Shown here piece by piece: positions 30,901 through 56,382 of a stretch of 64,000 bases of DNA (its first letter is position 1; every line of letters begins with the position of its first letter). Where the stretch lies: NCBI GenBank assembly GCA_009746045.1, contig RPFO01000065.1, forward strand, positions 8,184,741 to 8,248,740. Reading direction: 5' to 3'. This DNA is from Mesostigma viride (Eukaryota; Streptophyta; Mesostigmatophyceae; Mesostigmatales; Mesostigmataceae). The position numbers and the translations under genes are program-made. Under the pieces are notes generated by a model, which was not told the origin of the DNA, did no database searches, and worked only from the letters and a program-made list of their open reading frames with translations.

Positions 30901-32202
30901 AGCGCAAGCAGCGTTGTTGTCATTGAGCTGCTCATGTGCTGCTGCTGCTGCTGTGCTGCCATGCTATTGCTGCTGCATTGCTGCCGTACTGCTGCTGTGC
31001 TATTGTGCTGATGTGTTGCTGCATTGCTGCCGTGCCGCTGATGTATTGCTGTCGTGCTGCTGTGTTGATGCACTGCTGCATTGCTGCCGTGCTGCTGAGC
31101 TAGTACTGCCTATTAGTGAATTTCCTATCAATGGACTATAGTCCACTGATAGGAAATTCAGGAATCGGCATACTAAGTTGCTGCTGCGCTGACTTGTGCT
31201 CCTGCTATGCGGCCGTGTTGATGTGCTACAGTTGTGCTGCTGCTGTGCTACGGTCATGCTGCTGCTGTGTTGCTGGGCTGATGTGTTGTTGCATTGATGT
31301 AGTGGCTATTGTTCCGCTACTACAATTTGCTACTGATGCCGCTGCTGGTGCTTTTTTGCATGTCAGTGCCCGCTATGTTCACACCACTGTTGCCGCGGTT
31401 GGTATCGCGTGATTTCCACCGGTTGTGCGTTGACATGTGTTACTCATGCATTTGCCCCTATATTTGGTAGCACGCGGTTTCGCGTTAGTTAGGTGCAGAC
31501 AGCTGCATGTAGACAAACATCTTGTTTAAGTCGGTCAATTAACTGTTCTTGACGCATCATGGTCCAAGTCGACCGACCTGTAGGGACCAGTAGAGCAATT
31601 GTCTAGGAGAAAGAGCGTGATCGCTGCAGAAGCCGCGTGGCAGCCGTGGCTGTACCTGTAGTACGACCTGCATATATATGGATACTGTATTTGGATACTG
31701 GGTTGTTTATCAATTCTGGTTTTAATTTATTTAGTGTACCTGGTGTTGGCATGCCAACTCAGTGCTAAACTACTTTATGCACAATGATGCAACTTGATGC
31801 TATAGTGACGTGCCACGATGTAACTTTATTAACTTCACCATTAGTCATGGGGTCAATAGGATTGCTCATTATGCCATGTTAACATGAACCATGGGTTACG
31901 TAATAGTGAAAACAGTAATCATGATGCTCCACTTGAAGTCTCCAACATGGTCATGTTTGGAATTTTATTGATCATATTCACAATATATGAAAAGAGACAA
32001 CAAACGTGGAAGCATGGCACGCCGAGGCCGATAATATATGTGTGAAATATGAAAAGAGACAACATCTTTGGCAAGCATGATCATATTATGCTTGCCAAAC
32101 ATATTAATGATATCGACCATGTCCAGAAACCATGTTTGCCAATGGTGCATTTAGGATACATTTGAAGCCGTGCAAATGTATCCTAATCCGGTAAAACCAC
32201 CC
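30901..32202. other. CTG-rich 3' region and right end of insert 1
   Basis: Copy of 21195-22496, including the 42-bp palindrome (31118-31159). It ends in the right TIR of the whole insert (32174-32202), followed by the AGA duplication. Confidence 0.75.
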
Positions 32203-33744
32203 AGAAGGGATCTGATGGGAACATTTCACGAGGATCTGGATATCTGTGCTGCCATGGTTTCTGTGGTAGAGTGTGGTGCTGTCACAAGGGCACAGGCAGC
32301 TAACCAGCAAACCTCCAAGCTGAGTCCACCCCCTGTAGAGGCTATAGCTTTAGACTGTCACGAGATGCTCATTGACCAGGGCTCTGTCCCAGGGGCCAGG
32401 GTCGACAGGCGTCCAGGGTGGGGATCAGTCACTGCAGGGCAGTCTTAGGGAGGGTCCTGCTGGTAGCCAGTCCACTCTCACAACACAATCAAGCACAGAG
32501 AATCCTAGGAGGGGGAGGGGACGGCCCAGGAAGTGGATACTGGAGCCAGGGATGCTGTCCAAATCTAGAGGATTGGCAGCTGAGATCAAGGGGAAGTCAC
32601 GTACTGACCTGTGGCTGATGTTCTGTCATCCAAGCATCTAGTCACTAGTCACCTGCAGGAGGGTGAGGTGCTGCAGCTGCAGCCTTTAGGACCTGGCAAA
32701 CAGCTAGTCCTGCCTAACCCTATGAGTATTGCCCTGCATGCTGGACGTGATTAAGGCCTTCACTAAAACTGAGGACCTGGCCACTAAGGCCATTCAGGAA
32801 GGAAGCTTTGGTAACAGGCCTGTGGAGTACTGGGAGGGAGTCCTTTATGTCCACACCCAGGATGCAGATCATGTAGTGACCAGGAAGGTCTATGTGCCAG
32901 AAATGGCCATTCCCACTGTGTTGCATTGCTTCCATGACGACGTGACTGCGTGTCATCCTGGGTATGCTAAGCTTCTCCATGAAGTACAAGAGAGGTTTTG
33001 GTGGCCCATGGCATGTTTCGTGATATCAAAGCCTATGTGGCTTCCTGTGACTCATGCCAAAGGAATAATAAGGTTAGGACTCAGGCAGTGCCTATCTTTC
33101 CTATGGCCATGCCTATTCCCCTTCGACCCTGGATCAGTGTGACCATGGACTTCATTTGTGGCTTGCCTGTTTCTGATGCTGGCAATGACAGGATACTGGT
33201 GGTGATGGACAGGCTGTCTAGAATGTGCCATCTCATCCCCTGCAATGCCCATCTCACAGCTGCCCAGTGTGTAGAGTTGTTCATGAAGGAGGTGTACAGA
33301 CTGCATGGCATATGCCACGTGTAATCATCACTGACCAGGATCCCTTGTGGATGTCTGGGTTCTGGAAGTCCTTCTTTGACATCCTGGACACTAAGTTGGC
33401 CTTTGGAGTAGCATACAGGTGTGCCAGCACGGGGGCTGTGGAGAGGCTGAACCGTATTGTACGGGAATGCCAGAAGCACTATTGTACCCATGATAACAAG
33501 GAATGGGACAAGAAACTTCCCTTCATAGAGTTTGCCATCAACAACTCACCCCTGGCTCCTCACCAAATGTCTCCATTTGTCATTTGCCATGGCCAGTGCC
33601 CCTTGACTCCATTTGACCTGGAGTTACCTGACAGGGATGCTGAAGGCCCCTTCAGAAGACGCCTAACCTCTATCCACCAGCTGATAGCATCCTTCCAGGA
33701 AGCTCACAGTATGGTTGCTGCTCAGATGTTGCATGCACAGGACA
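32203..33744 (+). CDS. pol, second part: linker and integrase (interrupted)
   Basis: Resumes pol after insert 1 with RDLMGTFHEDLDICAAM. The linker has an AT-hook-like RRGRGRPRK (about 32505-32530). The integrase zinc-binding region runs through LHCFHDDVTACHPG to ASCDSCQRNN (HHCC type). The catalytic core has Asp in TMDFICGLP (33148-33150), Asp in ITDQDPLW (33333-33335) and Glu in VERLNRIVRE (33441-33443). The last two are 36 codons apart, so exactly D-X35-E. Frame changes occur near 32440, 32700, 33000 and 33315. The segment stops in MLHAQD at 33744, where insert 2 begins, and continues at 53447. Confidence 0.92.
33741..33744. repeat. Target-site duplication GACA of insert 2
   Basis: GACA lies before the GGGTGG terminus and again at 53443-53446 after it. 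Deleting the insert and one GACA joins CAG GAC AAG TAT TTA in frame (AQDKYL). Confidence 0.85.
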
Positions 33745-33816
33745 GGGTGGTCCCACGCGGAATGGGGTCATTTTTGGCGCATTTTGCAAGAAAAAAACGC
33801 TAGTTTCAATCGTCCG
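33745..33816. repeat. Left TIR of insert 2
   Basis: Pairs with 53381-53442 on the opposite strand. The outer 24 bp are identical. An inner block with GCAAGAAAAAAACGCTA is shared after an indel of about 11 bp. Sequence from here to 34038 is noncoding. Confidence 0.88.
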
Positions 33817-34038
33817 ATATCTTTTTTTCGCGCGAATTTGGCGTCCGATCGCGTATTTTCGAGCTAATTTGGTGTCATAATGCTTAATTCATGTCAATTT
33901 GAGCGTACATTCCACATCGAGAGGCTTGAAAGTTAGTAATTCATGTAAATTTTACGTGGAGAGACTCGACATCATCCTAACCTTTGTATTAACCATAGGA
34001 CGAGCATTGCCAGCGCATGTCCAAGTGCTAACTTTCCC

Positions 34039-37000
34039 TCACACTTTCGAGGGCCTCTTCCGTAATTTCGCTTCCGCGATCTGCTGTTCCGTTTTCGAGT
34101 TCCTCCTCTTCTTATCGATCTCCTTTGTAGGCGCCCAGACTTCCACATCCTTCCAGCTCTTGCCATCCGTCAGCTTTACCACCTTCATCGCGTAGTCCAG
34201 CGGCATCCACCACAACTTGTTCTTCAACTTCCCTCCCTTCTCCCCCTCAGCGAAAAACTTAAATGCGACGTCCCTCCACTTGGTGTCGTATCCAGACACC
34301 TGCCCATAAAGCATGACGTCTTCTAGCTTGGCATACATTCGCGTAGCCGTATCCTTGTTCCCTGCTTGCATAATGGCTAAAGTCCACCCATCACACCAAA
34401 AGGCCTCTGGTGCTCCGAACCCCATTTCCCCGTCCATAAGTCTCATTTCCAACGTGGGCTTGTCATCATCCTCATCGCCCGCCTGACTGTCTTCCGCCCC
34501 CTTAGGCTCCTCCCGTCCGGAAGTGTCAGCATGTACAGCCGCTGGTCCGAAGCCCACCGCCACATTAGCCAAGCGAAGTAACTGCTCCACATCCTCATTA
34601 CCTGCGAGCAAACCGATCATGCCATCAACGCATGACTAAAATCGAGTTAGTAGAAATCGGACTGCCAACCGTGAAAAATCAAAACACTCTACATACCAGA
34701 ATTCACTCGCAGATTTTTTCTTACCCTTTTTGGCCTTTTCCTTCGACCTCTGCTCGCAGGTAGACCCCGTCTGGGGGTGGGGGGCAGGCTCCGGGGCGGG
34801 TTTGGCGGGCTCGGCAACCTTGGCAGTCTTCGCGGTCTTGGGTAACTTCTTGGAAGCAACGCGCTCCTTTCCCCCGTCCTCCTCCTCTCCGCCGCCATCC
34901 TCCTCCTCCTTCTCCTCCTCATCGTCCGAATCTGAAAGCACAACTTCTTTTCGACGCCGTTTCTGAGGCAGGGCAGGCTTGGGAGGCTTCCCCACCTTGG
35001 CCGATTTCTTGGAAGCAACGTGCTCCGCAGCCTTCCCACCCTTGGCGGATTTCTTGGTAGCAACGTGCTGCTCCTCCTCCTCCTCCTCCTCCTCCTCCCC
35101 CTCCTCCTCCTCAGCATCGTCGTCCTCCTCCTCCTCCTCCTCCTCAGCATCGTCGTCCGAATCAGCCACTGCCACAACTGGCTTACGAAGCTGCTTCTTC
35201 GGTACCTGAGAAATGGCCAGAGTCGGCGGGGGAACCCGAAGCTGCTTCTTCGGTACCTGAGAACTGGGCAGAGGCGCCGGGGTGGGCAGAGTCGCCGGGG
35301 GAACCCGAAGCTGCTTCTTCGGAACCTGAAAAACGGGCTGCGACGCGGCAGGCTTGGAAGGCCCACCTCCATCATCCTCAACAAGTGACACGACTGCCCG
35401 TCGAGTCACTTGAGAAGCGGGCTTCTTCGCCGCAGGCGGATCCGAATCACCTTCAGGCCCCGTCCTCTGTTCGGCCTGCTGCGTTCTGACCTCGACGGGG
35501 GTCTCTCCGCGGTTAGACCCTCCTGCCGGACCTCCATCCCCTCCATCCCCTCCCTCCAACAACTGTTGGTCATCCCTCTCCACCACGGCGGACGATCCCC
35601 CAGCTTCGTGGGAAGCTTTTCGCTTCTTCGCCCTTCCGAGCCTAGGCCCCCCATCACCTTCCCCCTGTTCAAGCCGCTCCCACAATTCACTCCCTTTCCC
35701 GATCCTTTCCACTATCTCTTGAAACCCCTTAATCTCCGTCTTGGTACCAAACACGATCACCATCGGTTCGAACCTGGAGAAAAAGTCGTGGGCGCAAGCC
35801 TTCAGCACATTATCGTACATCCCGCCCGGTTGGGGAATGGACGAAGCTGTCGGGCAAGGACCGAACGCCCACCACCCTCTCTGAAAGTTACTCCACTTAT
35901 CACCCCAAATGTTCGCCAAGTTCAGCAGGCTCAGGCACGGAAGGGACCTGCCCAAGGGAAAGGGGCGGGCTGAAGCTGAGGCAACCTCGCCTGCCACCTG
36001 CTTGACGAGCGACTTGTCATCATCATCACCGTCTAGTTCCTGACAGCAAAACCAGACCCGGCGACGGCCCCAGTCCACACTCTGCCACTCATACTTCACG
36101 TCCCATTCCTCCTCCTCCTTCGCCTCCTCCTCCTTCTTCGCCTCCGTCTCCTTCCCCTTCCCCTTCCCCTTCCCCTTCTCCAGCCCCTTCACCGGCCCCT
36201 TCATCGCCGCCTCCTTCACCCCCCCTTCGAGTAATCCAACTTTTGGAGCGTACTTCCTGAACGCTTCCGGAGCCAAAAGTGCCAAACCCACCGTCTTGTC
36301 CTCGCTCTCTTTTAGCAGAATCTCCTGAAAGTCGATCTTGCCACTACTGAGATCCTTTCTCGGAATCCTCAGATGTGCGGCGTGTTTTTTGGCTTTAAGA
36401 AGGTAGGCGATGTTCCTCGTTATGATGACGGCCACATCCCAAAATTGCCGGTATCTGGCCACAATCTCCTGCCTGCCGACCGGCCGAAGGAGAGGATGGA
36501 GATTGAAGACGAGTTCGAAAATATGAGACGCCACAAACTCCTTGCCCTTTGCGTCCTTGCATTGCGCTTCCAGCGTCTCATCCTCCTTGAATCTGGCGCA
36601 AATGGTCAGCCGCAGGCACTCCAGCACATCCTTGGCGAACTCCACCAACTTGGTGAGCTTTTCCGGTCCAACCTGGCAGCTCATGATGCAATCGATCACG
36701 GCGTCCATCATAGGAAGGCTGGCCAAGTTCCTGAAAGCGGTCCAAGAGACCTTCTGGCCTTTCTTCTCCCCCTCTGCATTCGCGAATTTGCACCTTTGCA
36801 TCATCACCTCCTCAGGCGCGGGTTTCGTTGAGGCAGGATCATCAGTCTGCTCCTGTGTCAGACGGAGAAACGTGTTGGCCAGCGTGCGACTGTAAGCGGA
36901 ATGCACTGAAGCAATGCTGTGGGCCGGCTTTTTCTTTCCTTCTGCTTCCTCCTCGTGTACATCCACCGCTGCCGGCTCCACATTCCCTTCCCTTCCCCCC

Positions 37001-40000
37001 GCTTGCCGCATAGCCGGGAGGATGTACGTGAGCAGATTGGTGTAGTGGCCATCCGCAATATAGTGGCCCTTCCCACGCGTGACTTTGCCGTATAGATATA
37101 GCTTGTTGTAGTTCCACACGTCAAGCAACGCCTGGCCCAGCGTACGATCCGCCACGGCTAAGTCCTCCGAATTCGCCCCCTTGGCGATGTCGAACAGCTT
37201 CTCCAGCTTGCCGGTCAGCACCGCCTGCGACATCAATTAACATCGAGCGAGCAACGACAAAACTCAGTCATAAAAGGCGAGGGGTATAGCTGCGGATAGA
37301 CCCTAACAAAATTCGAAAAAGAAACGGCCGACAATACGCAACGAAAATTCCAACAAAAAAAAGGAGAGGGTCTAGCTGCAGCGAGACCCTCGCAAAAAAC
37401 TTGAAGCGCACACAAAAAACAACCACGAAAATTCCGAGGGTCTACCCGCAGCTAGACCCTGCCAAAATAGATAGCTTACATCTTCTTTTGCCTTAGGTAG
37501 ATTTCGAAGCTCACTCCACGACGGGAGCAGGTCGCCACCCTTGAGAAGAATGACGTTCGTACCCATGTAACCACCACGGAATTTCCGCAACAGGTCCTGG
37601 AAGGCGTGCTCCGCCTCCTTAGGAGTACTTTGCGAAATTGGACTCCGCCCCACCCTCGCACATCATTGCCCGAACCTCTCCCCACCCGCCATCCGGCCCC
37701 CTGAGAAACGACTTTAACCCCTTAAAGTAGTGGTTCCCATCCACCACCGCGTACCGGAGAACCAGATACGGTACCGGTACCCGTTCCTCAAAAAATTTCG
37801 GATCGTAGGACTTCATCGCAGTATTGCACAGCAGGTTGAAAACTTGCCGACTGCCCTCGATCTCCTGAGGCAAAACTGCGGCCACCTCGTCCACCTGGCG
37901 TAGGTACGCCACTCAAGTCCTCTCGCAGGAAAGAGGTGGTGGACTCCGTGTTAAGCCACACGTCGACTTCAGTATCCGAAAGGGGCCGGAAGTACCTGGA
38001 CCCCACATCCTCCGCGTCAATCTTGGCGCCGTGGTAATGCTTCAGCCACTTGACGAAATCCGGCATGCACAAGATTTGCTTGTCGAACAGGTCAGGTTGA
38101 GATTCGGCAAGCGCCTGGAAAGGGAACTGCCAGACCGGGACAACAACCTTGAAGTGCAAGGCGTTGTCCCGCGCATTGAGGAGAATGCGGGCCGTTCTCC
38201 TTAATGGTTTCAAGGTTTAAACGCCGCTGCCTCAAAGCCTCTGGCAAAATAAGCGCGTTGACCGTCTGGATCCGCATACTGAAACATCCGGTCTGCTGAA
38301 AATCGGCCGGCCGAATCCAACGCGTTTCCCTGAGAGAATTGGCCTTCCGGATGTTCTGGTCCCTGACCTCCTTGTTCGAGTCGACCTTTTTCGAAGGCTT
38401 CCAGCTTTCAATGATAGGGTCGGTGTCCGGGTTCCCACTGCTCGTGAGCACCCCCTCCTTAAAAAGCTTGTTGAGTGACCGGAGCAGCTCAAGAAAGGGG
38501 GAGAACTCGGGCCAGTTTGGCAGGTCATCGACGTCCGCCATCCGCCTACTCGAGCAGTACTTGAGCATATCCTTCACCAGCGCGAACACGGCGTCATGAC
38601 CAGGTAACTTCTTCTCCACCGTGGCGTCTTCGTCCCCCCCGTCATCCTGAAGTAAAAAATCGAAAAGGACCGCAGGATTTGCTCAAGTCAGTAATCTTTA
38701 GGCCGACCACGACATCCTGTTCAGGGACGAACAAAGTTCTGTTGGAATAGTACCTTACTGACACTAAACACCAAGTCCCGCAGCCGTCAGCGTCTACCCG
38801 CAGCGAGAGGTCTAAATTTTCACAACAATCGTACCTGTCCAGTTTTCTGCTGCTTCTTGGCCTCCTTAGCCTTCTCCTTCTCCGCCTTCTTCGCCTCCTT
38901 CTCCGCCGCCTTCGCCTCCGCGTTCTTCTTACTGTTGGCCTTTGCCACCGCATTCAGCGCCCTTTTTCCCTCAGCGGCCCGACGACGAAAATCAGCCTTC
39001 ATGAATTTCTCGATCTTGTCAACCTTTGCCTCTGAGTACTCCTTAGGCTGCCACTTGAAATTCTTGGTGGCTTTCGACTTCACCAGATTTGCGAATTCAT
39101 ATGCCAATTCACTCTTAAAGGTAGCGTCACCCAACACCTCCGTATCGAAATCGGCATCGACTTCCGCCTCAAGTCGTGTCAGGTACTTGCGAAACTCGGA
39201 CCCCGCAGGTCCCTCCGAATCGACGCCATCGGGCGGAGACTTAAGCATGATCAGGCCAACAGCAATAATATGATCCTTCGCAACCTTCTTGCGGGAATCC
39301 AGCTTTTCCCTTTCATGCTCAGTCAATGGGGCTTCGCCGCCTTCCCCCCCGCAGTACCCCCAGCGACAGCCCCCGCCTGCATGACAAAAAAAAACGAACA
39401 AGAAGGGACTTGACCTCAGTTCGATTGTTGCACCATCGTCTCTCTGCGGAGATACCCCTCAGCACGAAAAAAATCACACGAACTCGCGGCGGATGAACGT
39501 ACCTGCACAGCCACTTCTCCCTCAGCGTCTCCCCCATCCTCATCTCCTCCAGCGTTTTCATCCCCCCCATCCTCATCTCCTCCAGCGTTTTCTTCCTCTC
39601 CGGCAGCGCCTGCTGAGGCCAAACCCCCCGCCTGTCAACACCGAATACGACAGCTCATTGGAAATCAAAATTAGTCGACATTTGTATATTTCGCATAATG
39701 CGCTCACTAAAACTTCAGGCGAAATGCAGACATCCGGATATCGTTTAATGCTTACCATTTCCATCTCGAGTCCAGACCAAATACCAGCACTGTCAACAGC
39801 CATCGCCGCAGCCGCCCCCTGAAAAAAGACAACAGATTGGTTGGGGGCACCGTTGAAATTAGCCGAACATGTCAGTCTCAATAAAAGGGTGAGGGTCTAC
39901 CTGCAGCTAGACCCCATGTAAGATGCTCGTGGAAACTCGACGGACAAGCACCCACCTTATCAACCAAGTCTGACAAATTAGGTAAATCCTCCGATACGTC

Positions 40001-42482
40001 CCCTGGCATGGAGCCCCCCTGCATGATATGACAGGACAAACCATGAAGGTTGGTCAGCATATAGAGCCCTATTCAGGGAATGGAAACAACCCAAATCGAT
40101 AAACGATATCGGCAAGTTAACGTACCGAAACGTAGAACTTCCACCTCCTCAAAATCTTCCCCAAAGGCCATATCGGCACTTGATGGGCTCTCTCCTTTTC
40201 CAGTTGCCGCCTCAATTCCGCCTCGAAGAACAACTCGAGGGACTGCCAATGGCCTCCCGCCTCTAAATCAGACCACTCCGTGTCTGTCTTGGTTCGGATA
40301 CTCTGGAGACAATCAACCAACGAGATTTGATCCAACCATTCCTGGACGACTTCCCGGTATGGCTTATATGTCTGAATAACATGGAAGTCCTCCCGGTGCC
40401 GGAAACTTTGGATCACCTGTCCAGCCCAATCCAAAAAGAAAGCGACCGCTTCCCGCGAAAGGCTGGCGTCCGGGCTGACAAGAAAGTCAGTCCGCCACTT
40501 AACAAAAGATTGCAGTAAGTGGTCTCTTGCCATGTCCAAATGCGCGATCACTTCATGTGCGCGGCTCCTCCAATCCTCTACGTCATTCATTTCTTCCGGC
40601 ACAATTACGATATAGTCACTGTTGGACGTGTCAACAAATCCTTGCCTGACAATATCAAACACTTCATCTTCCGACAGTGAAGCCCTCGAATCCGCTCTCA
40701 TATCTCCAGTCATGAGTTTAAAGAGCTGATGCAACGCAGTGTTTTCAAGGTTTCCATATAGGAAGCCTCGATGCATGTGAAGCCAATGTGGACCTCGAAC
40801 TTTTCAACCTCATCAAAGAGCGTCGACCATATTAAAGGACGACGGAAAGTAACGTCCGACATCTCCTTCAGATTAAGGATGCACGACTGCGCGATCTTCA
40901 AACCTCATACATGTCGTCACCAACGACCCTCTTCCCATGAATGGCTCGCTGTGTGGCTTCGAACAATGCAAGACGGCCAGGCGCGTCGTTCTTCCAAATT
41001 ATGTGTGCCGACTCCGGACGGTCCACGACGACACCGGACTTCTCTGCAAACGTATCTCGCCGAAAGAAGCGGATCAAGCCTCTCAAGCCCTTTTCGGTTT
41101 TACGACTCACCCCAGCCTCCAGACTCAGTCTGAGCCAGGTACTGTTTCAGAATGGCCACCGTGGAGGGCTGCAGACAACAAGAGTAAAAAAAAGGCCACA
41201 CATCGTCATCGTCGTCGTCAACAACCTTAACTCCTAGGTCAACGTCTCTCCGCAGCTAGACCCTTACGATCAATGTATGGCATAAAATCCCACCTTTCTA
41301 CGATACACACACGCCGTTCAAGCCATCTGAAAATGTACGTCTTACATTAAAAACATACCTGATAATCGACTGAAAATCGTTCGTGAAGAAGGGGTGGGCT
41401 CCCGTTCTCGTCCTTCTCCCCCTCAACTGCCTTCGCAGCCTCCCCTCCTTCCTCGCAGCCTCCTCCATCTTCCTCGCGGCCTCTTCCGCCTTCATCCTCT
41501 CCTGTCCATCTGCAAAAAAGAGCGGCCTCCTCCGCAAGAATTCCCTTCGCTGCCGCCTCGTCTTCTTCTTCGCTCCTCCTTCTGCTTCGCCACCAGGTCC
41601 TGTGCTCCTTCTCCTGGGCAGCCTTTTTTCCTTTACTCCCTCTCCTCCTCCTCCCTCTCCGCCTTCTCCAGCCTCTCCTTCTCCTCCTCTCCACCCTCTC
41701 CCTCTCCGCCTTCTCGATGGCCTCCCTCTCCGCCTTCTCCTTCTCCTTGTCCTTTTGTCGAGAGCCGCGTATTCGTCAGCAAAGCTTGCGGCCATTAGCT
41801 AACAAATCGGACAACCGCTTCTTGACGCGATCCCGAACCGGCGATTCCGGGTCTTCAGGCCTCCCGTTAGTCTGATCGCGCTCGTCCTCCTCAACAAGCT
41901 CACTGATAGACTTCCTCAGCTTCTGAGCTCTTGGTGCGGTCGTCTTCCTCTACCCACTCGCCGCAGGCTTACGCTTAGACTGAATGCTTGGGGGACGGCG
42001 AGCGGGACGCAGCAGCGGGGACTTGCTGGTGGCGGCGAGCGGGACTTGGGGGAAAGCAGAGCGGGACGGCGAGCGGGTCGCAGTTGCGGGGTTCTTTGGT
42101 TGACGGCGAGGGGGACTTGCGAGAAGGAGAGCGGGACGCCAGGTAGCGGGGGAACTTTGGGCGGGAAGGGGGGACTTGCGGTTCGGCGAACGGGTCGCAG
42201 TTGCGGGGACTTTTGGGGACTTGCGGGGCGGCGCGGGACGCAGTAGCCTCCGGCCGACTTGGGGCGGCGATGGAGACTTACGGGGCGGAAACGGGACGGA
42301 GCGCGAGACGCAGCAGCGAGAGAGGTGGGGGGTATAATTCTGTCCAACTCGCTGGGGGCAAGTTGGACTTGGAGGGCGAGGGGGACTCGGTGGGGGGGAC
42401 CTCGCAAGACTTTTACGGGACCGAACTGCAACGAAGGAAACTCCTCCGTTGCGTTCGGCTCCGGCGAGGTGTTCGACGTCAT
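34039..42482 (-). CDS. Multi-exon gene of unknown function in insert 2
   Basis: Exons with clear GT-AG sites on the minus strand: (41.1 kb to) 40126; 40018-39956; 39818-39756; 39631-39503; 39376-38835; 38646-37480; 37224-34697; 34601-34039. Donors include GTACGT, GTGGGT, GTAAGC, GTATGT; acceptors end TGCAG, TTCAG, GACAG or CGCAG. Most joints are phase 0; the exon starting at 39376 needs one G added to a G7 run and the final joint is off phase. Exon 38646-37480 has three frameshifts (about 38190, 37910, 37622) and the 5' part (40.1-42.48 kb) several more. A likely start is ATG 42482 (MTSNTSPEPNATEEFP), followed by a Pro/Arg-rich stretch and a Lys/Glu-rich coiled coil (KDKEKEKAEREAIEKAERE). The 37224-34697 exon ends with three VPKKQLR motifs, long Asp/Glu runs and basic NLS-like patches. 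No catalytic domain recognised. It may be a DNA- or chromatin-binding partner of the transposase; that is a guess. Confidence 0.6.
37225..37479 (-). other. Intron carrying three palindromes
   Basis: 255-bp intron (donor GTAAGC, acceptor GATGTCGCAG, phase 0). It contains palindromes at 37280-37304, 37367-37390 and 37437-37460, which take up almost a third of its length. Confidence 0.75.
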
Positions 42483-43079
42483 CTTGGGTGAAACGGAGTG
42501 GCCTTGACAGAATCGGAATAGGAGGACGACATCTGCAGAACTATCAAAAAAGCAAGTTTTCACAATGTCATTCAGAATCTGAATCGCCGGCAGAAAAACG
42601 ATGGGAGGGGTCTCGCTGCAGCTAGACCCTTTCGTGGATTCTAAAAGGACATTTAGTTTAATGCAAAACTTTGGCGTCTCGCTGCAGCGAGACCCTCACT
42701 TCAAGCAAAAACAAATCATTTTTAGGGTGAGCGTTAAACAAGCAACCTCCCATCATGCAAACATAAAAAAGTATACATTCCTTGGGGTCTCGCTTGCAGC
42801 GAGACCCTAACGTCAAACAAAAAACAAATAATTTTAGGGTGAGCGAAGGAAGCCCCTCCCATCTTGCAAAATTAAAAGTCGACATTCGTAGGGGTCTCGC
42901 TGCAGCGAGACCCTAACACCGATACAAAAACAAATCATTTAAGGGTGAGAAAAGAAAGACCCCCCATCATTGAAAAACATAAAAATTGACATTCCTTGGG
43001 GTCTCGACTGCAGCGAGACCCTAACGTCAATACAAAAACAAAATTCCGAGGGTTCTACCGCAGCGGACCCTTACGACCA
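42483..43079. repeat. Upstream region with six palindromes in about 107-bp tandem units
   Basis: Palindromes lie at 42606-42630, 42673-42696, 42784-42808, 42891-42914, 42998-43022 and 43049-43071. The spacers are related (AAAAACAAATCATTT, AGGGTGAG, CATCATGCAAACATAAAAA), so the block is a small tandem array. It lies just 5' of the minus-strand gene and could include its promoter. Confidence 0.8.
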
Positions 43080-43734
43080 CGTATAAATAATGTGGGGGGG
43101 GAAGCTACGTATAAATCATGTGGGGGGGGATGCTATGTATAAATGCATGTGGGGGGTGGCTGGCATTAATAATTAAATGTGGGGGTGTGATGGCATGAAT
43201 AAATAAATGGGGGGGGTGCTGCCATGAATAAAGAATGTGGGGGTGTGATGGCATGAATAATGAATGTTGGGGGTGCTGGCATTAATAATTAAATGTGGGG
43301 GGGTGATGGCATGAATAAATAAATGTGGGGGTGCTGCCAGAATAAAAGATGTGGGGGTGATGGCATGAATAAATAAATGTGGGGGGTGCTGCCATGAATA
43401 AAGAATGTGGGGGTGCTGCCATGATAAAAGAATGTGGGGTGTGATGGCATGAATAAATGAATGTTGGGGGTGCTGGCATTAATATAAATGTGGGGGGTGA
43501 TGGCATGAATAAATAAATGTGGGGGGGTGCTGCCATGAATAAAAGAATGTGGGGGTGTGATGGCATGAATAAATGAATGTTGGGGGGTGCTGGCTTAATA
43601 TTAAATGTGGGGGGTGATGGCATGAATAAATAAATTGTGGGGGTGTGCTGCCATGAATAAAAGATGTGGGGGGGTGATGCATTAATAATTAAATGTGGGG
43701 GGATGATGGCATGATAAATAAATGATACGTGCGA
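43080..43734. repeat. About 30-bp satellite, block A
   Basis: About 21 copies of a 28-31-bp unit of the form AATGTGGGGGGTGATGGCAT then GAATAAATA, with many small indels. The first units (43080-43140) read TACGTATAAATCATGTGGGG and are intermediate in sequence with block B in reverse orientation. Confidence 0.93.
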
Positions 43735-46208
43735 TCACCCCCCCACATGTATTGATAACGTAGGCATCACCCCCCACGTGTATTAATACGTAGCATCCCC
43801 CCCACATGTATTGATACGTAGCAGCACCCCCCACATGTATTGATACGTAGCAGCACCCCCCACATGTATTGATACGTAGCAGCACCCCCCCACATGTATT
43901 GAATACCGTAGATCCCCCAACGACATGTATTTGATACCGTAGCAGGCAACCCCCCCACATGTAATTGATACGTAGCAGCACCCCCCACACTTATTGATAC
44001 GTAGCAGCACCCCCCACATGTTTGATACGTAAGCAGCACCCCCCCACATGTATTGATACGTCAGCAGCACCCCCCCACGCTGTATATACCGTAGCATCCC
44101 CCCAACTGTATTGATACGTAAGCAGACCCCCCCACAATGTATTGATACGTAGCACACCCCCCCACATGTAATTGATACGTAGCGCACCCCCCCACAATGT
44201 ATTGATACGAGCAGCACCCCACATGTATTGATACGTAGCAGCACCCCCCACGTGTATTGATACGTCAGCAGCACCCCCCACCGTGTATTGATACGTAGCA
44301 GCACCCCCCACTGTATTGATACGTAGCGCACCCCCCACATGTATTGATACGTAGCAGCACCCCCCACATGCTATTGATTACGTAGCATCCCCCCCCCACA
44401 TGTATATTGATACGTATGCAGCACCCCCCACATGTATTGATACGTTGCAGCACCCCCACATGTATTGATACGTAGCAGCACCCCCACGTGATTGATCGTG
44501 CAGCACCCCCACATGTATTGATACGTAGCAGCACCCCCACTGTATCTGATACGCAGCACCCCCCCACGTGTATTGAATACGTTGCAGCACCCCCCACATG
44601 TATTGATACGTAGCAGCACCCCCCACATGATTTGATACTCAGCAGCACCCCCCACATGTATTGATACGAGCAGCACCCCCCACATGTAATATACGTATGC
44701 AGCACCCGCCCCCACGTGCTATTGATACGTAGCAGCACCCCCCCGTGTATTGATACGTAGCAGCCCCCCCCACAATGTATTGCTACGTAGCAGCACCCCC
44801 CCACATGTATTGATTTACAGCAGCACCCCCCCCATGTATTGATACGTAGCATCCCCCCCACACATGTATTGTACGTAGCAGCACCCCCCAATGTATTGAC
44901 ACGTAGCAGGCCCCCCACCATGTATTGATACGTAGCAGCCACCCCCCACCTACATGTCATACGTAGCAGCACCCCCCACGTGTATTCGAACTAGCAGCAA
45001 CCCCCCGACATGTATTGATACGTAGCATCCCCCCACACAATGTATGATCGTAGCACACCCCCCCACATCGTATTGACAACGTTAGCCAGCACCCCCACAT
45101 GTTATTGATAGTAGCCAGCCCCCACCACATGTATTGATACGTAGCAGCACCCCCCGTGTATTGATACGTAGCAGCACCCCCCACATGTATTGATACGTTA
45201 GCATCCCCCCCACACTTGTATTGAACGTTAGCCAGCACCCCCCAACATGTAATTGAATACGTAGCAGACCCCCCCACATGTATTGATACGTTTAGCACAG
45301 CACCCCCCCATTGATTTGATAACGTTAGCAGCACCCCCCACGTGTATTGATACGTAGCAGCACACCCCCACGTGTCATTGATACGTAGCAAGCACCCCCA
45401 CATGTATTGATACGTAGCAGCACCCCCCCCATGTATTGATACGTAGCATCCCCCCCATGTATTTGATACGTAGCATCCCCCACCACAGTATTTGATACCG
45501 TAGCAGCACCCCCCCACATTGTTTGATACGTAGCGCACCCCCCAATGTATTGATACGTGCAGCACCCCCCCACATGTATTGATATCGTAGCAGCACCCCC
45601 CCACGTGTATTGTTACGTAGGCGAAGCACCCCCCACGTGTATTGATACGTAGCAGCACCCCCCACGTGTATTGATACGTAGCAGCACCCCCCCTTGTATG
45701 ACCATACGTAGCCAGACCCCCCCAGCACTGTTATTGATAGTAAGCAGCACCCCCCCACATGTATTGATACGTTAGCCAGCACCCCCCCACGTGTGATTGA
45801 TACGTACGCAAGCACCCCCCACTGTATTGATACTAGCAGCACCCCCCCCATGTATTGATACGTAGCAGCCACCCCCCAGTATGATACGTCGCGCCACATG
45901 ATGAATCACGTAGCAGCACCCCCCCACATGTATTGATACGTAGCGCACCCCCCACTGTATTTTACGTCTGCACCTGGCACCCCCCACGTAGTATTGATAC
46001 GTAGCAGCACCACCTGTTACTGATACGTACGGACCCCATTATTGATACAGTAGCAGCACCCCCCCACATGTATTGATACGTAGCAGCACCCCCCCGTGTC
46101 ATTGATACGTAGCAGCACCCCCCACATGTATTGATACGTAAGAGCACCCCCCACATGTATTGATACGTAGCAGCAACCCCCCCACATGTTATTTGATACG
46201 TAGCAGCA
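43735..46208. repeat. About 30-bp satellite, block B (inverse orientation)
   Basis: About 80 copies of CACATGTATTGATACGTAGC followed by AGCACCCCCC, with frequent one-base indels. Its reverse complement resembles block A (shared TGGGGGGTG and CAT-TATT words), so A and B are diverged halves of one family arranged head to head. All open frames inside it are repeat artefacts. Confidence 0.95.
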
Positions 46209-48008
46209 CAATTTTTAGTAGCTACCATCCACGTTGCGGCAAAAGATACCATTTTTTTGTTTCGGCAATAATGAAGATTTCTTGCAAACTATCGTCTATG
46301 CAGGAGGTAGCACGTCCGATGTTATAATCGGCAGGTAGCATGCAAACGTCGAAACGATATGAAGGGAAAAAAGCATCAAACAGGAGCACCGATTAGAAAC
46401 GCAGCAATGCGTATGTGCACATCTACACATTAACCTAACCCAGACCAACAGGCATAGCAAACCTGGAAGGGACCCAGAAACGCCAGCACACATGATCGAC
46501 AATGTGCGAGACCAAGAAACGCTCCTGGCAACAGACTTAAAGGATGGATGCCAGTGTGGATTAGGATCGGCTAAGCTGACTCTCCGAGATGCCTGCAGGT
46601 TTAGCTAGCAACGAAAGAGGAAGCAGATTTTTTATCACTCTTGCTGCTAACCATTAGAGTTCTCTGGATCGGCCAGCGGAACCATGTTGTCGCCAGTGGC
46701 TAATGCATGTTCGTCGGTCGTGCATAGCGTTTGTTTAGTTTGCCGGTTTTTTGATAGAACATTTTAGTTCAGCCTACCATCCAGATGCGGAAAGCATCAC
46801 TCTTTTTTTCGTTGTGCGGCTAAAGGCAGGACAGATTCAAACTTCCGGCACCAGGCAGGTATCAACGTAGGATTTTATAATCCAGCAGGTAGCATGCAAA
46901 CGTCGAAACGATATGGCAGCTCGTATCAGCTATGGGGTCTCTCTGCGGCTGCGCTTCTTTTTCGATGGGCGATGGGACGGTCGCAATTCGCAAACGGACG
47001 CGGCGTCACAGGGCTGAACGGTATTGAAAAAATTGGAAACGTGGCATCCTCGTTCCTCCCCACGGAACTGAAAACTGGAAGCGCGGCGCTGGTGCAAAAG
47101 CTCGATCCCATCTTTTGGAACCAAGCTAGCGGATTGGACGACATCCAATATGCCGTCACCCGTGCTTGTGGCCGCAGGTATAAAAAGAGACGACCTCCAG
47201 CCCATTTACCTGGGAACATTCGGATGTTTGGCTGACATCGTTACCATGCGTCAATGTACAATGAGGTTCTGGGTTCGATTCCTGGTGTGGTCATGGAAAT
47301 AAATTTTTTTCTGCACATCTACTGAAATCAGTCATAGCACCAAACAATCACGCTGCAGCGAGACGCTATAGCCCTGGAGCCGCTGATAAACCTGACATCC
47401 GGTACGTCTTACTATCATAGATTGCCGAACTATATAATAATAATAGTCTATACCACTTTTTCTTGTAAATGATTTACTAAATAATGATTCTATATACTTT
47501 AACATACCATATTATTAAAGTATGTGGAATTTAACCATGCTATTCACAATATATTATAAAATCTTTTGCAAAATATACTGTAATTAGTATATATATTTTC
47601 TGATAAACAATTTTATCAATGCTACTGTGTTATTTTTGTTATTCTCGCCATGCAGGTATCTGAGTGTTCTGGGAGAACTAATAAGAGAATGAGCCGCGAA
47701 GGTGAGGAAAACCTGAAATCTTTTCGTCCTTATTGGGGTCTCTCTGCAGCTAGACCATTTATAACCACAAGCAATAGCTTAAATTCAAGGGTCTCGCTGC
47801 AGCTAGACCCTCTTTATGGTTGCTATAAAATTAATGAATCAGAAGTCTGTGATTTAACAATCGCACGCCGCAATGAAGGGTCTAGCTGCAGCGAGACCCC
47901 AATCTTGGTCGGGGTATGCTAAGTTCACCACATCAGGTAATCTTTTCGTCTAACGGAAAAAGCCCCTCTAAGGGTCTAGCTGCAGCTAGACCCCAATCGT
48001 GGTAAAAA
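46209..48008. other. Noncoding spacer with direct repeats and palindromes
   Basis: Two diverged direct copies of a roughly 150-bp block (about 46210-46358 and 46762-46914) share CTACCATCCA, GCAGGTAGCATGCAAACGTC and GAAACGATATG. Palindromes or halves lie at 46931-46953, 47349-47368, 47735-47756, 47788-47811, 47877-47900 and 47971-47994, the last four just before the transposase start. A GTATAAAAAG string near 47178 and a GGTTCGATTCC B-box-like string near 47270 are present, but no tRNA fold was found. Confidence 0.65.
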
Positions 48009-51000
48009 ATGATACACTTTCGAACTTTGTCTGTAATTGTCGCTTTTCCCAACGATACTCGATTTGCATGGATTTCGTTGTGCCGGTCGTCATGGCATGC
48101 AGCACGCGAACGGGTGGGAGTTTTCGCCCTTGCGTCCGGTCGTCCAGGATTCAGTGCAATTAAGTTGAACACCGGGACGAAGCAGTCAACTGGCGCAAAA
48201 AGGGTTTTCGGAGATGAGAACCAGAATCCAGCGCAGCCTGAAGCCAAGGAAGTCAAGCGGCCGGGAGAATACTCGAAATCAAAGAGGGTTATTGGGGAAT
48301 ATTTCGCTGACCAGGCGTTTGAAGCGGCTCAGGCGATGACAAAACCCGAGGGGCGGGGGCCGGCTTTCGACCAGATGATTGCTGGCTTTAACTCTAGGGC
48401 CGCTGAACTAGGTCACGGGAAGTATCATGAGGAGGCGAAAAAGCTTTACAATCAGGAGCGGATGGCAGAACTGAACAGGTTCTGGGTGGCTCGGATTAAC
48501 GGCTTTTTTGATGGTCTGACCAAAAGCGACGCAGACAGAGACGTCAGGATGGTGCTGATGTCCACGCTTTACTGTGGTGACGACTTGGAGAAGGAGTTTT
48601 CGGCCGCGGAGTTGGAGAACCTGACGGGGATGGACGCCAAGAAGATTCGCGGAATTCGCGCGATACGAAGGCAGCAGAAGTTGGACTACCTCAGACACGC
48701 GCAGGCTCGCAAGGGGCGCCCTTTGCCGCAATTCGTGATTGACGCGATAGTGGACGCGTGGATGCACGATGATGAGTCGCGCGCCTCCTCCCAGATGAAG
48801 GATGTCAAGCGCACTTACAGCAGGGAGGGTCGTGGCAATCACGGGGTGCTCGTCGCCGTTGAGGGAGCGCGCTATTACATGACCTCCAAGGAGGACATGT
48901 ACAATCACTTTCTCGAAAAGCATGCGTACTGGAACAAAAGGAGTAACCAGTATGATAAGGACGTGGGCATTCACGTGGGCTACACGACCTTCTGCAAATA
49001 CGCGCCCGATTGCATCAAGGGCAAGTGGAAGGAGAGGAACCTGTGCGCGTGTGAGAAGCACGTCACCATGCAGTCGGCCATGGGGGCGTGGACCAAGCAC
49101 TCCAATGCGAACCACGGCAAGAACTGCAAGTGTGGCGCGGAGTGTGCGGGATGCTCCAAGTACAGAGAGCCGGACGGTACTTGCGGAATGTGGAAAGCCA
49201 TTCACTCGACGGACTGGATCAAGCACTTTCACTGCCCGGTGTCCGCCGAGACTGACGGCAGGGATAACGGGCTGCGTGAAGGGGGCGGAATGGGCGGGGG
49301 GATGGAAGAGGGGGAGGGGGAAGATGAATGGCGGGGACGGGACCTGGAAGACCTCGACATTTCTGAGAGGCTGGTGGAGGACGAAGATGGGGTGCCGAGG
49401 ACGGAGAGGGTTCACCGCATACTGAAGATGGCGTGTGTGGAGGGGTTCTGTCCTGAGGAATCATGCGGCATCCATAATAACTGGGTGCAGTGTGATCGGG
49501 ACAAGAATTCCACGGAGATTCTGAATTGGTTCAAGTTCGAGATGGTGGAGCAGACTGTGACCCGACGGGTGAATGTGAGTTGGTTTCGATTTTATTTCTC
49601 CGTTAATATGTTGTTGACTTTTTTTTTTGTGACCTATAGCTGCAGCGAGACCCTTTGTGAGTTGCAGTTATCTTATCGAAATGCGATTTTATTGCAAATC
49701 GAAACTGTCTGCGGACCTTTGCGAAACAGGGCGAGACCGATGGCAGGGCGGCGAAGAAGGTGAAGCGGCCCGAGCAAGTCCAAATGAGGTCCACCCCAGC
49801 TGAGCTGCGGGACGAGATTCTTAAGATGTGGGACAAGTTCACCGTGCACTGCTTTACGGCCTGGTCGCAGGCGGATACAATCAAGGATCGGGAGAAGAAT
49901 CTGAGAGAGGGGGACGTGCTCGTGCACGGCGACTGGGCCGAGAACTACGAGAACAGCAGCTACGTCCAACTGCAGTCGCAGTACTTCCACAAGCGCAGCC
50001 ACATCCTGATGCCCATGATCGTGCGTTATCGGCTCAACGGCGAGCTGGAAAAGCGCGTCTTCTTTTTCCTGGGGGATTCCAGTATCAAGCGGGGCGAGCG
50101 CGCACTCGTATACGCTCTTCGCAAGATTCTGGAAACCCTGCGGGTAGAAGTAGGGGTAGAGGTGCGAAACCTGTACATGTGCTCGGACAACTGCGCGGTG
50201 CAGTTTAAGTCCAGGTACGTGATTAACCAGATTAACGGTCTGCTCATGGGGGATCCCGACCTGCAGGCCTTTGAGTTCCACTACATGGGGGAGCAGCATG
50301 GGAAGGGGGAGGTGGATGGTCAAGGAGCGAAGTGCAAGTGCGTCTTGAGGGAAATGCAGAGGATTCCCGAAAACCAGCACATACTTGAGACCCACCAGCT
50401 AGTCGCCTACTTGAACCAGAACTGGCAGGGCGGCAAGACATCGAGCAGGGAGTCGGCCCGCGCGCGGGCCGAGAACGTCACTCGCCACTTCTTCCTTTTA
50501 CCCCCGGTACGGAATTGTGTGTTATTTCAGGTTTTAAGACGTCAACTGCCGCTGTTCTATAAAAATTCAAACCCAATAAAGGTATCTCTGCAGAGAGACC
50601 CTATATACTGTCAATGGGTTGCTTTTCTTTTAGGTATGAAATTTCGCTTGTTCTATCGGTATGAAGGGGTCTCTCTGCAGCTATACCCTGTGTCGAATTT
50701 CGATCACTTGATATCTTGTCGTACGTTGTTATTATGATTCGAATGGGGTCTCTCTGCAGCTATACCCTGTGTCGAATTTCGATCACTTAATATCTTGTCG
50801 TACGTTGTTATTATGATTCGAATGGGGTCTCTCTGCAGCTATACCCTGTGTCGAATTTTGATCACTTGATGTCTTGTCGTTATTTTTTTTTTTAAGGGGT
50901 CTCTCTGCAGCTATACCCTGTTTTATTGATTTTTGGTCAATTTTGCTAACTTGAACGGTATTCTTTTTGCCCTAACTATTTGATGACAGGACGTCGAGTC

Positions 51001-51735
51001 CGGCCGACGCGCGGAGGTGAGGAGGTGCCTGGCATCAAGAAGGCGCATTGGTGGCGACTGGACAAGTCCGACCCTGGCCTTTTGATGATTAGGCGCTATT
51101 CCTGCTACTGTCCGCCCTGTTTGGCTGGGCGGTTTGAGGGATGTCTAAGCGAGTGGTCGTTTATCATCGAGTTCAATGATGCAGGAAGCTCGATGAAAAC
51201 TGTCCGTTTGCTGCCACCGAGCCAGCCCAACCCTCCGGTTCGCATGGTGACGCGGGGGGAGCAGCTGAAGGACAAGCGGGAGGCGATGGGCCGGCAGATG
51301 AGACTCCACGACTATGTGGCAGTTCCATCGGACAAGGACACGGATCACGATCCCATCCACCCGTTCTGGTTGGCTGAGGTTGTAAGCGAAGCCGGGCCGA
51401 TCGTGTTAGACGAGAACTTCGAGAGGTGGGTCGAGGGCCGGAACGGACGGGAGAAGGAGCTGTTCCTCGCCGGGAACGGCATTCTTCCCGTTCGGATTTG
51501 GAAGCGGGATAAGCATGACCCCCTGCATTTCACGCTCAACGTTGAGGATTGGCCACCGTCACGCCAGCCCGAGCTTGTGAATTGCTATCTCTGCGTCGCT
51601 CCGGCTCTCCGGCTAGAAGCACGCGTGCGCAGCGACGGAATGTGTGCCGACATCAGGATGAGCAAGGAGCTCGACAAGTGGCTTACTGCGCTGGTGATCA
51701 AGGATGAAGCCCCGGAGGGGCCGGCACCGACTTAA
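48009..51735 (+). CDS. DDE-type transposase of insert 2 (three exons)
   Basis: ATG at 48009. Exon 1 (48009-49574, 522 codons) has an NLS-like KEVKRPGEYSKSKR, then a Cys/His-rich region (CKYAPDCIKG, LCACEKH, CKCGAECAGCSKY, FCPEESCGIHNN) likely to bind zinc. Intron 49575-49729 (GTGAGT to AAACAG) joins in phase 0. Exon 2 (49730-50506) carries the putative catalytic core: Asp in HGDWAENYE (codon 49931), Asp in MCSDNCAVQFKSR (codon 50186, 85 codons on) and GEQHGKGEVDGQG, in which Glu codon 50291 (35 codons further) or Asp codon 50315 could be the third acidic residue. DFAENY / SDG..QFK / HGKG..DG blocks occur, as I recall, in poorly described animal transposase-like proteins. Exon 3 (50990-51735) reads RRYSCYCPPCLAG and ends EAPEGPAPT; its phase is off by one from exon 2, so an indel or a different splice site is involved. 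It presumably cuts and rejoins the GGGTGG ends. Confidence 0.75.
49575..49729 (+). other. Transposase intron 1 with palindrome
   Basis: 155-bp phase-0 intron, GTGAGT to AAACAG. A degenerate palindrome (ATAGCTGCAGCGAGACCCT) sits at 49632-49654. Confidence 0.75.
50507..50989 (+). other. Transposase intron 2 with five palindromes
   Basis: 483-bp intron, donor GTACGG, acceptor GATGACAG. Palindromes at 50580-50602, 50666-50689, 50745-50768, 50824-50847 and 50896-50919. The middle ones lie in an almost exact 79-80-bp tandem triplication (TGTCGAATTTCGATCACTT words), pointing to recent local amplification. Confidence 0.75.
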
Positions 51736-52022
51736 ACAAGAAATTGGGGTCTCGCTGCGGGTAGACGACGCCCTAGTTTCGGCTCGTATTATATCTTTAG
51801 AGTGGGGCTTCAGTAGGGTGTAAAAAGGTGGCCGCATATATTGTATATATTTTTCGAGATCTTTCTGAGGTCAAGTTTAAGGGTAGTTGATAATTTTTTG
51901 CGGCCTTCAATTAACAGTTATTTTTTACTGCAACATAATTTTATGCTGTATATTTAAATAATGATAAGGATTTCGATATTTTTTTGCACAATCTATTCGA
52001 CATTTGTTTCTGCATGTCGAGA
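51736..52022. other. Noncoding 3' flank of the transposase gene
   Basis: Contains one degenerate palindrome (51746-51766) and AT-rich sequence. No gene seen. Confidence 0.6.
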
Positions 52023-52236
52023 ATTTATTGCTCCACCCCCACAAAAAAAATCGTTCCGGAACTGTTCGAAGCGAATAGCACTGACAGGATTCGAACCCGG
52101 GTCCACCTTAATGTTCGGAGTGAGGTAGGCCAGCCATCATGTTCCGCACTCAAATCTGGCTCGGGTCCGATCCCTCCATTGCTCTTCGCTTCGAACAGCT
52201 CCGGAACAAGTTAGGTGTGGGGTTGGAGCAATAAAT
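52023..52236. mobile_element. 214-bp inverted-repeat (MITE-like) element nested in insert 2
   Basis: The outer arms ATTTATTGCTCC and GGAGCAATAAAT pair. Inner arms with GTTCCGGAAC and TGTTCGAAGCGAATAGC pair with their counterparts on the right (two mismatches). The unpaired centre contains GGATTCGAACC, which on the minus strand is an exact pol III B-box/T-loop string. No target duplication was recognised. It could be a nonautonomous transposon or a tRNA-derived repeat. Confidence 0.65.
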
Positions 52237-52556
52237 ACTTATTTGCCGGGCGCAGTTGTCATTCCGCCTAGTACAATTGCGTCACTAGTACAATTTTTGT
52301 CTGGGTACGGTACGAACCAATAACGCAATATTTAGTATCTAATCGCCGCTGCTCTTGCTGAATTTTATCCGGAAGCTGAAAAAGGTGTCCGGTGAAGCGA
52401 ATACTAGTGACTGGTGGTCGTGCCCTTCCATTACTCCTTATCGACAAATTTTGGGTTCTACCTGCAGTTATAACCCTTGCGCGTCTGGCTGTCGGGGTCA
52501 CCAATTTCCTGTCGATTGCAAGCAGCCAACCTTGCCGAAATTTAACACTGTCACAA

Positions 52557-52994
52557 ATGGAGCAGAGCAATATTTTCGGTTCTCAGCATACCTATGTGAT
52601 GGTCGACAAAAATGAGCACGCTGCAAACATCAGAATTGATGTAGAGTTGCTCGGACCTTCTGCACAGTGGGGTGCAGGTGTCATTGCGTTCGGCAATGGC
52701 ATGATCGATCTGGTGCCACCCGATTCAGATTTGAACCCTGCTTACCAATGCGTGCCTGACAATCAGGCGAGAGTGGTGGTGGAGAGCACGGAAATTCCGG
52801 GCTCTCCCAATGTATCAATGATGCGCCTGAGGGCCGAGGCCCAGCAGGAGTTCCTGGCTGCTGCGGAGAACGGCGGGGCCAAGTGGAACACCAAAATGTA
52901 TACAGGCGAGCCTCCCAACTACAGGGGAGACCAGTACCAGGGAGTGTACTCCTTCGGCGATTTTGACATCGACGGATGGGGCACCTTTTTCTAG
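52557..52994 (+). CDS. Small protein of unknown function in insert 2
   Basis: ATG at 52557 gives a 145-residue protein starting MEQSNIFGSQHTYVMVDKNE, with a middle GPSAQWGAGVIAFGNGMIDL and ending FGDFDIDGWGTFF. The frame is open further upstream to 52392, but that stretch is hydrophobic, contains a palindrome (52453-52476) and has weaker coding character, so I prefer the internal ATG. No transmembrane segment or known motif. It lies between the transposase and the right TIR, in the same orientation as the transposase. Confidence 0.5.
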   Translation: MEQSNIFGSQHTYVMVDKNEHAANIRIDVELLGPSAQWGAGVIAFGNGMIDLVPPDSDLNPAYQCVPDNQARVVVESTEIPGSPNVSMMRLRAEAQQEFLAAAENGGAKWNTKMYTGEPPNYRGDQYQGVYSFGDFDIDGWGTFF

Positions 52995-53442
52995 GCGCAA
53001 TGCCTAAGTTGTCAAATACTCCGACAATGTCAAAATTGCGAATGATAAAATTACGGACATGTGCACATATATGTACTGATTCAATAAAAACTTTCGGCAA
53101 TTTTGTTCCCGGCATTGATAATCAATAGCTGCTAGCAAGCCAAGGACTTCAAAAGTGGCAATAGATCGATGTAGGTCGTCGATAAACTTGTCTAGTCGTC
53201 ATATTTCGGTCGCAAAATTCGTGCGTGGCCTGCAGGCATCGGACAAAGTGCACGCAACAGCAGGAGTCGGTTGAGTTCGAAGCACGGCAGACACAAAATT
53301 TCGGCGCAAAGTCCGTCGGGCGAAAAATTCGCTCGGCTGCCAAATTTTCGGCAAGAATTTCGGCGCAATGTCCGGTTTTCGGACGATTGAAATTAGCGTT
53401 TTTTTCTTGCAAAAATCTACCCCATTCCGCGTGGGACCACCC
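52995..53442. other. Right subterminal region and TIR of insert 2
   Basis: Noncoding. It has repeated TTTCGGCG and AAATTTCGGC words around 53290-53370, resembling the left subterminal GCGAATTTGGCGTCCGATCG region, and then the right TIR (53381-53442). Confidence 0.75.
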
Positions 53443-53446
53443 GACA

Positions 53447-55603: not shown

Positions 55604-56382
55604 TGTAACAAGCAAAAATGACTTTGTTGTTACATCCTTTGTTTTGTGAATGTTTGGCTTTTATTCGAGGACTTTTGGATCAGTATTGAGAAAGTTATGA
55701 GGTTTCTAAGACGACGGTACTTGGAGCTGATACTTTGTCAACCAACTGATAGGAACCCTCATTGGTCGTGGCCTGATCCACGTAGGGTTGTAGTTTGTTG
55801 GCTGATACTACTGATAGGAGCCCTCATTGGTCGTGGCCTGATCCACGTGGGGTTGTAGTTTGTTAGTTGGTACTATTGAGTCTTAAATGCTCCTTTGGGA
55901 CTTCAGTGCTTACGACAGATTTAGGATCTCATGGAAAGATTCTGCCAGGCTGTGTGTGGTGTTGTTCTGTTTTGTGTGACTAGGATGGATACGAAGATCT
56001 TGTATAGAATTCCATGGTTCTGATTGGTTCTCTTCAGGCTAAGGTTGGAGCAAGTTCGACAAGCACGTCGATATCAAGGACGTGGGGTCGCCATTGTTGC
56101 TACGTTGGTTTTGATTCACCATGGTATAATAAAGCTTGTCTTTGTTGTCCATTCATAAGAGCCCCTTGGCTATAGACGTCCTTCAGTTCCACAGAGGTCG
56201 TCTATACACGAGCTTGTCTTTGTGTCTACAAGGGGTTGTGATTCCCTAAATCACGTGTTGTGGAATTTCCATCTCAACGTTGCTCGGATACTTGAAGTTC
56301 TGCAACTCAAGAAAGCAACCCAGGTAAAAGATCTTTCATATTGGACTGTAGATGATGCTGATGATCATTTTTAGTCGTTACA
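55604..56382 (+). repeat. 3' LTR (779 bp)
   Basis: Matches the 5' LTR end to end. Differences seen by eye: three C-to-T or G-to-A type substitutions, one 3-base indel and two 1-base indels. Followed by the GATAA duplication (56383-56387). Confidence 0.95.

Follow-up and report, generated by a model that had tools for sequence, protein, structure and literature searches.

What are the short palindromes that recur across one large insert in the genome of Mesostigma viride, and why are they kept? The window analyzed here is a 64,000-nucleotide stretch of that genome, and an earlier note, made from its letters alone, described 27 palindromes in what it called insert 2. We find that this insert is a family-A DNA transposon of 19.7 kb carrying approximately 28 copies of one short palindrome, almost all in non-coding sequence, and the original observation is upheld in part. 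Where the palindromes lie, how little they diverge, how their letters vary with the family, and their retention in non-coding derivatives all indicate that they are most likely cis-acting, family-specific DNA sites, predicted to be read by an element-encoded protein. The reading we favor, as a probable one, is that they are dyad binding sites for the element's own protein, which would mark the family as self and open its chromatin while sparing host genes.

A family-A transposon and its palindromes

The complete element occupies positions 33745–53442 of the window, as judged from a scan for terminal inverted repeats (TIRs) and from its flanks. The TIRs begin GGGTGGTCCCACGCGGAATGGGGT, and a 4-bp target duplication, GACA, lies on either side (33741–33744 and 53443–53446). 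A second full family-A copy is flanked by the duplication CTAA. A transposase-like gene on the forward strand (48103–51735) consists of exons at 48103–49574, 49730–50506, and 50990–51735, and its core aligns with protein P0004 at an hhalign probability of 97%. The protein contains the motifs D.AENY, SDNC..QFKS, and HGKGEVDG; a transposase with an HGKxxxDGxGG core is one we take to be DDE-type and Sola2-like. It is in these motifs, the P0004 alignment, and the 4-bp duplication that the element resembles the DDE transposons provisionally called Sola2-like.

In the window copy the reading frame is broken between the second and third transposase exons (50506–51030). The three protein matches to the transposase are all JGI predictions from M. 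viride; one of these, P0001, terminates in the same shifted tail as the window copy, while P0002, a family-B prediction, is longer and reads on past the break. The transposase exon has at least 138 scored matches in the genome, at least 13 of them at 67% identity. None of the nine window frames examined scored above any Pfam family's cut-off, the segment 48006–51735 had no match in phage records, and neither the transposase exon nor the exact palindrome was found in viral contigs.

Within the window, 20 places match GGGTCTNNCTGCAGNNAGACCC with at most three mismatches, all of them between 35499 and 52475, compared with a mean of 0.01 matches in 100 dinucleotide shuffles of the window. Weaker and indel-bearing cases bring the total to 28, made up of the 27 palindromes noted earlier, each recovered to within about four bases, and one more at 35499. 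Outside the element the window holds seven matches of 13/18 and none of 14/18 or better, so that the sites at 38790 and 47345 (13/18) and 46935 (12/18) cannot be told from chance matches by score alone. The count does not include a further 13/18 match, which falls within an open frame of the left arm at 34746.

The palindromes had been described as confined to introns and spacers. This is true of 27 of the 28 but not of all, since the site at 35499–35520 (16/18) lies within an 866-aa open frame; the 27 lie outside long open frames, with introns and spacers called from DNA rather than RNA data. The exceptional site is identical in all three other copies where it can be read. Three sites (37282, 37368, and 37438) fall in an intron of a reverse-strand left-arm gene (37225–37479, bounds as given in the earlier note), and single sites at 38790 (weak), 39436, 39893, and 41242 are scattered among the left-arm genes (38790–41263). 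A spacer cluster of six (42608–43070) lies in and beside a 106-bp tandem repeat (42671–43042), and two weak sites at 46935 and 47345 (46935–47366) are upstream of the transposase. The forward-strand transposase intron at 47702–48102, placed by mapping the P0001 exon junctions to the window, has four sites (47736, 47789, 47878, and 47972). The intron at 49575–49729 has one (49632–49653), and that at 50507–50989 has five (50580–50918), four of them within a 79-bp tandem repeat. The last two sites are found 12 bp past the transposase stop codon (51747–51768) and upstream of p5, a small ORF common to families A and B (52454–52475).

Several other repeats occur in the window. Inside the element, 29-bp units in both orientations make up a minisatellite at 43083–46209, and such arrays are present in other copies as well. 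In the region of insert 1 (15953–31269), a segment is present twice, approximately 9.7 kb apart, with tandem-repeat arrays at 15977–17152 and 25683–26858. Repeats of a single 65-bp consensus unit at 9453–9587 and 55745–55879, 46 kb apart, are perhaps the ends of a retrotransposon surrounding the inserts. A perfect GTG repeat of 96 units is found at 60828–61116.

Genome-wide occurrence, derivatives, and divergence

The motif had been reported as absent outside insert 2. This holds within the window, where every site is inside the element, but not across the genome: an exact-pattern search of 440 Mb of genome sequence identified 1837 sites, with none for the reversed control. The available text of PMC6947507 gives a genome size of 442 Mb. 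Matches to the family-A TIRs number 210 + 202 (control, 0). The association of motif and element is nevertheless borne out, as among the matches listed (50 of 1837; contig C1 and part of C2) all 50 are in family-A elements or their derivatives. Thirty are flanked by two exact TIR matches. Another 17 belong to two copies that have one exact TIR each and the other end set by alignment (C1:652351–765992 and C2:4443648–4466111), two to an element half with one TIR (C2:4808–4814 kb), and one, at C1:7391307, to a degenerate MITE-related copy. The first of the two one-TIR copies, which was read in pieces, appears to be spread across approximately 113 kb, probably as a result of nested insertions. A literature search found no paper on the palindrome motif.

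Two kinds of derivative keep the sites. MITEs of about 586 bp have family-A ends and two exact sites approximately 226 bp apart; the distances from the sites to the ends are 133 and 205 bp, and the target duplications are TCCA, CAGG, TGGG, AGAG, GGTG, CCCC, and TGAT. A MITE aligns with the full element only over its two ends, for 131 and 63 bp, and at the sites. TIRs, target duplications, dispersed copies, and short derivatives with the same ends are thus all present, as in a DNA transposon with MITEs. The second kind is a 10.3-kb element (loci L029 and L030) that has family-A ends and lacks any transposase match. Among its 22 sites scoring at least 14/18, 17 are exact and 20 form two inverted arrays (2082–2680 and 7112–7590). 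Its left end matches the full element for about 0.9 kb and includes sequence related to the first left-arm frame, with no open frame reaching 130 aa listed in this segment; a few hundred bases at the right end and several short stretches match as well. The MITE and the 10.3-kb element have nothing in common except the ends and the sites. TIR pairs at the spacing of the 10.3-kb element also occur on contigs C36, C280, and C335.

The sites have changed little between copies. When the window element is compared with four other family-A copies, of which one was covered in part, 17 of 2104 site bases (0.8%) and 702 of 21363 other non-coding bases (3.3%) differ. Calling the sites from the window copy in itself depresses their apparent divergence, by our reasoning at most about twofold. 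None of 5000 random placements gave a divergence as low. Differences in the flanks amount to 41/1923 at 1–10 bp from a site, 74/2075 at 11–22 bp, 96/3101 at 23–44 bp, and 141/4169 at 45–80 bp, and those in exons, whose bounds are approximate, to 442/30354. All of these counts omit columns near gaps, alignments shorter than 400 bp, and the site in the open frame. In seven of the nine MITE loci, leaving aside L005, which has an insert, and the degenerate L009, the differences are 0/308 in sites, 0/700 in TIR ends, and 48/3087 in the rest.

Every readable site is present in the four other family-A copies except for one 79-bp array unit, which is missing in two. The number of site-bearing units in this intron array (window 50667–50918; L017, L023) is four in the window and in two of the copies, and three in the remaining two. 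Some indels are particular to the window, with one inserted base in each of the sites at 42785 and 42999 and several indels in that at 43049; the four other copies do not have them.

The MITEs could point to a different function, in which the palindromes are internal transposition sites, serving as enhancers or as a store for the transposase during cut-and-paste without any role in chromatin. Consistent with this, the MITE sites are close to the ends and, like the TIR ends, show no difference in seven copies, and the 10.3-kb element carries approximately 22 sites. However, the sites of the full element are at least about 1 kb from both ends, many are intronic, and the motif is absent from the TIRs. 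We therefore consider this explanation unlikely.

Sister families and arm pairing

Family B has a transposase exon 67% identical to that of family A, and at corresponding positions it carries a dyad with shifted letters, GGGTSRCNCTGCAGNGYNACCC. By our call there are 27 related sites in the family-B loci L025 and L026. The half-sites differ most plainly at position 6, which is A in 38 of 40 family-A halves and T or C in 39 of 42 family-B halves. In both families, sites are present in each of the three introns of the transposase (for example, family B carries AGGTATCTCTGCAGAGTGACCT in the intron matching 50507–50989 and has a site in that matching 49575–49729), just past the stop codon, ahead of p5, and in an array within a spacer. 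The family-B array consists of 58-bp tandem units, and its outer listed sites are 441–945 bp apart, depending on the copy. In one pair of family-B copies covering eight of the 27 sites, differences are 0/176 in sites, 24/1686 in other non-coding sequence, and 6/3550 in exons.

Genome-wide, the GGGTSRCNCTGCAGNGYNACCC pattern has 134 and 131 matches on the two strands, with none for the control. Of the 13 contigs listed for the family-B transposase, nine are among the listed places of the family-B motif; C28, C113, C353, and C488 are absent from them, and the copy on C113 bears other family-B sites. Some contigs among the motif matches are listed without a listed family-B transposase.

A third family, C, has a transposase exon approximately 42% identical to that of family A and the motif GTTRCGCC-N4-GGCGTTTC, which is not fully palindromic; its exact pattern has 871 and 1010 matches genome-wide (control, 0). 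Nine sites are found in the 10-kb locus L027, upstream of and inside the transposase gene (two introns), where no site of the A or B type was found; a match at L027:9077 was dropped as it lies beyond the right end of the element. One pair of copies covering these nine sites has 0/180 differences in sites, 48/3669 in other non-coding sequence, and 4/2554 in exons. Another 15 sites occur in L033, approximately 20 kb from L027. This locus encodes a relative of the family-A left-arm frame at 37791–38216 (27.6% identity over 105 aa, E 6.5e-10), and for that reason we take it to be the left arm of the element in L027. The same relative rules out the transposase as the only gene common to families C and A, so that the transposase is not the sole candidate for the binding protein. 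A frame in this presumed left arm (L033:5502–6281) has a MYND zinc finger (Pfam, E 2.5e-7). A search for the left ends did not find them in either family B or family C.

The sister families bear directly on whether the element might instead be borrowing a host transcription factor or insulator protein, with the palindromes as its binding sites. Their placement in non-coding sequence close to where genes start, within introns, and where genes end would suit such a factor. Nevertheless, three related families in one genome have three versions of the motif, and none of the 50 exact sites among the matches listed is outside the elements, which makes a host factor improbable.

The earlier note had also stated that compensating changes keep the arms of the palindromes paired. 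We find no such effect in families A and B, the two included in the test. With three indel-bearing sites left out, the arms of the family-A sites (20 distinct among 25) are paired at 163 of 220 positions compared with 161.1 for shuffled arms, and 53 distinct family-A 22-mers at 430 of 583 compared with 431.9. The arms of family B (21 distinct among 27 sites) give 162 of 231 compared with 159.6. As the pairing is no better than that of shuffled arms, the palindromes do not look like hairpins. Each half-site seems to be constrained independently, as in a dimer site.

These results weigh against intronic RNA hairpins acting in splicing, termination, or small-RNA production, one of the functions initially suggested. 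Sites do occur in introns and the palindromes are able to fold, yet the arms lack covariation in families A and B, the gene-less 586-bp MITE keeps two sites, and the window has no match to Rfam at the gathering score. Family C leaves some room, since all 24 of the sites examined in it (at least 13/16; nine in L027 and 15 in L033) are on the sense strand of neighboring frames. By our count these represent about ten independent origins, an arrangement rarely expected by chance, and the sites may therefore have an RNA-level or transcription-linked role, but RNA hairpins as such appear quite improbable. The half-site had also been likened to a 3' splice site; in the one gene model available there is no sign of such use, and the P0001 exon junction between catggcatgcag and cacgcg (48103) lies outside any palindrome. 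A tiny hairpin parasite hopping inside the element, as the many similar copies across spacers and introns might suggest, is very improbable and was rejected, as the sites of families A and B are in the same places while the motif changes with the family, the four other copies retain all readable sites bar the one tandem unit, and no clean empty site was seen among the copies read. Of the three options put forward initially, the one that fits best is thus binding by the transposase or by a partner protein: the palindromes are retained in non-coding derivatives, have diverged little, and differ from family to family.

A possible anti-silencing system

We infer protein binding, the encoding of the protein by the element (as the transposase or a left-arm gene), and an activating or anti-silencing outcome from the comparisons above. 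Under the self-recognition reading, each site would consist of two 11-bp half-sites, CAG[CA][GT]AGACCC, placed back to back with dyad symmetry. A family-encoded protein would bind these as a dimer, both along the whole element and on non-autonomous relatives in the same cell. The bound protein would mark the elements as self and hold their chromatin open for expression and movement. Host genes would be left alone because the motif is rare outside the elements. With one motif per family, a site and its binder would have shifted together, and arrays would gain or lose units by tandem duplication.

To our knowledge, the VANDAL elements of Arabidopsis are the best-described case of sequence-specific transposon anti-silencing, and the VANC/VANDAL system is the closest analogue. 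VANDALs are Mutator-type transposons with target duplications of approximately 9 bp. In contrast, the window element and other family-A copies have 4-bp duplications and other TIRs, and the likeness described here is one of motif layout. The family-A site also differs in being a 22-bp dyad that is kept even in MITEs. As far as the accessible text of PMC5735166 goes, VANC21 binds YAGTATTAY in the introns and intergenic parts of VANDAL21, where the motif is in tandem repeats, and the VANC6 motif is a different one. The similarities, drawn from the available portions of PMC5735166 and PMC10398659, are that in VANDAL21/VANC21 and VANDAL6/VANC6 a short motif is dense in introns, intergenic regions, and terminal non-coding parts and rare elsewhere, that it is spread by tandem repeats, and that a related family has another motif. 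The palindromes of family A follow this pattern, being short, specific to the family, located in introns and spacers, and in some cases part of tandem repeats.

A wider interpretation, which we offer tentatively, is that VANC-like self-recognition and anti-silencing arose separately in giant multi-gene transposons, where dimeric, family-specific sites shelter gene-poor derivatives too, one of them by way of two inverted arrays totaling about 20 sites. If so, this would be a second, differently built case of anti-silencing, in an early-diverging streptophyte alga from a lineage near the base of the Streptophyta, and it would suggest that an arms race between binder and motif is a general transposon strategy. 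Three families with three motif versions in one genome, together with the MITEs and the gene-poor element, provide a natural experiment for the co-evolution of binder and site.

In the Spm/En elements of maize, the element-encoded protein TnpA has many short sites, which are known only from the subterminal regions; the elements have CACTA ends and 3-bp target duplications. The family-A element resembles them in its many short sites, although there the sites are read by an element-encoded protein and here the binder is predicted. Unlike those of Spm/En, the family-A sites run through introns, and the element has neither CACTA ends nor a 3-bp duplication, its ends being GGGTGGTCCC and its duplication 4 bp. 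According to the accessible part of PMC10398659, TnpA activates Spm in correlation with demethylation, and Spm TnpA and MuDR MURA are also named among cases of transposon anti-silencing. The family-A element is also much larger than curated bivalve Sola1 elements: these have a mean length of 5445 bp in the available text of PMC10294476, whereas the family-A element extends over 19.7 kb and carries several genes.
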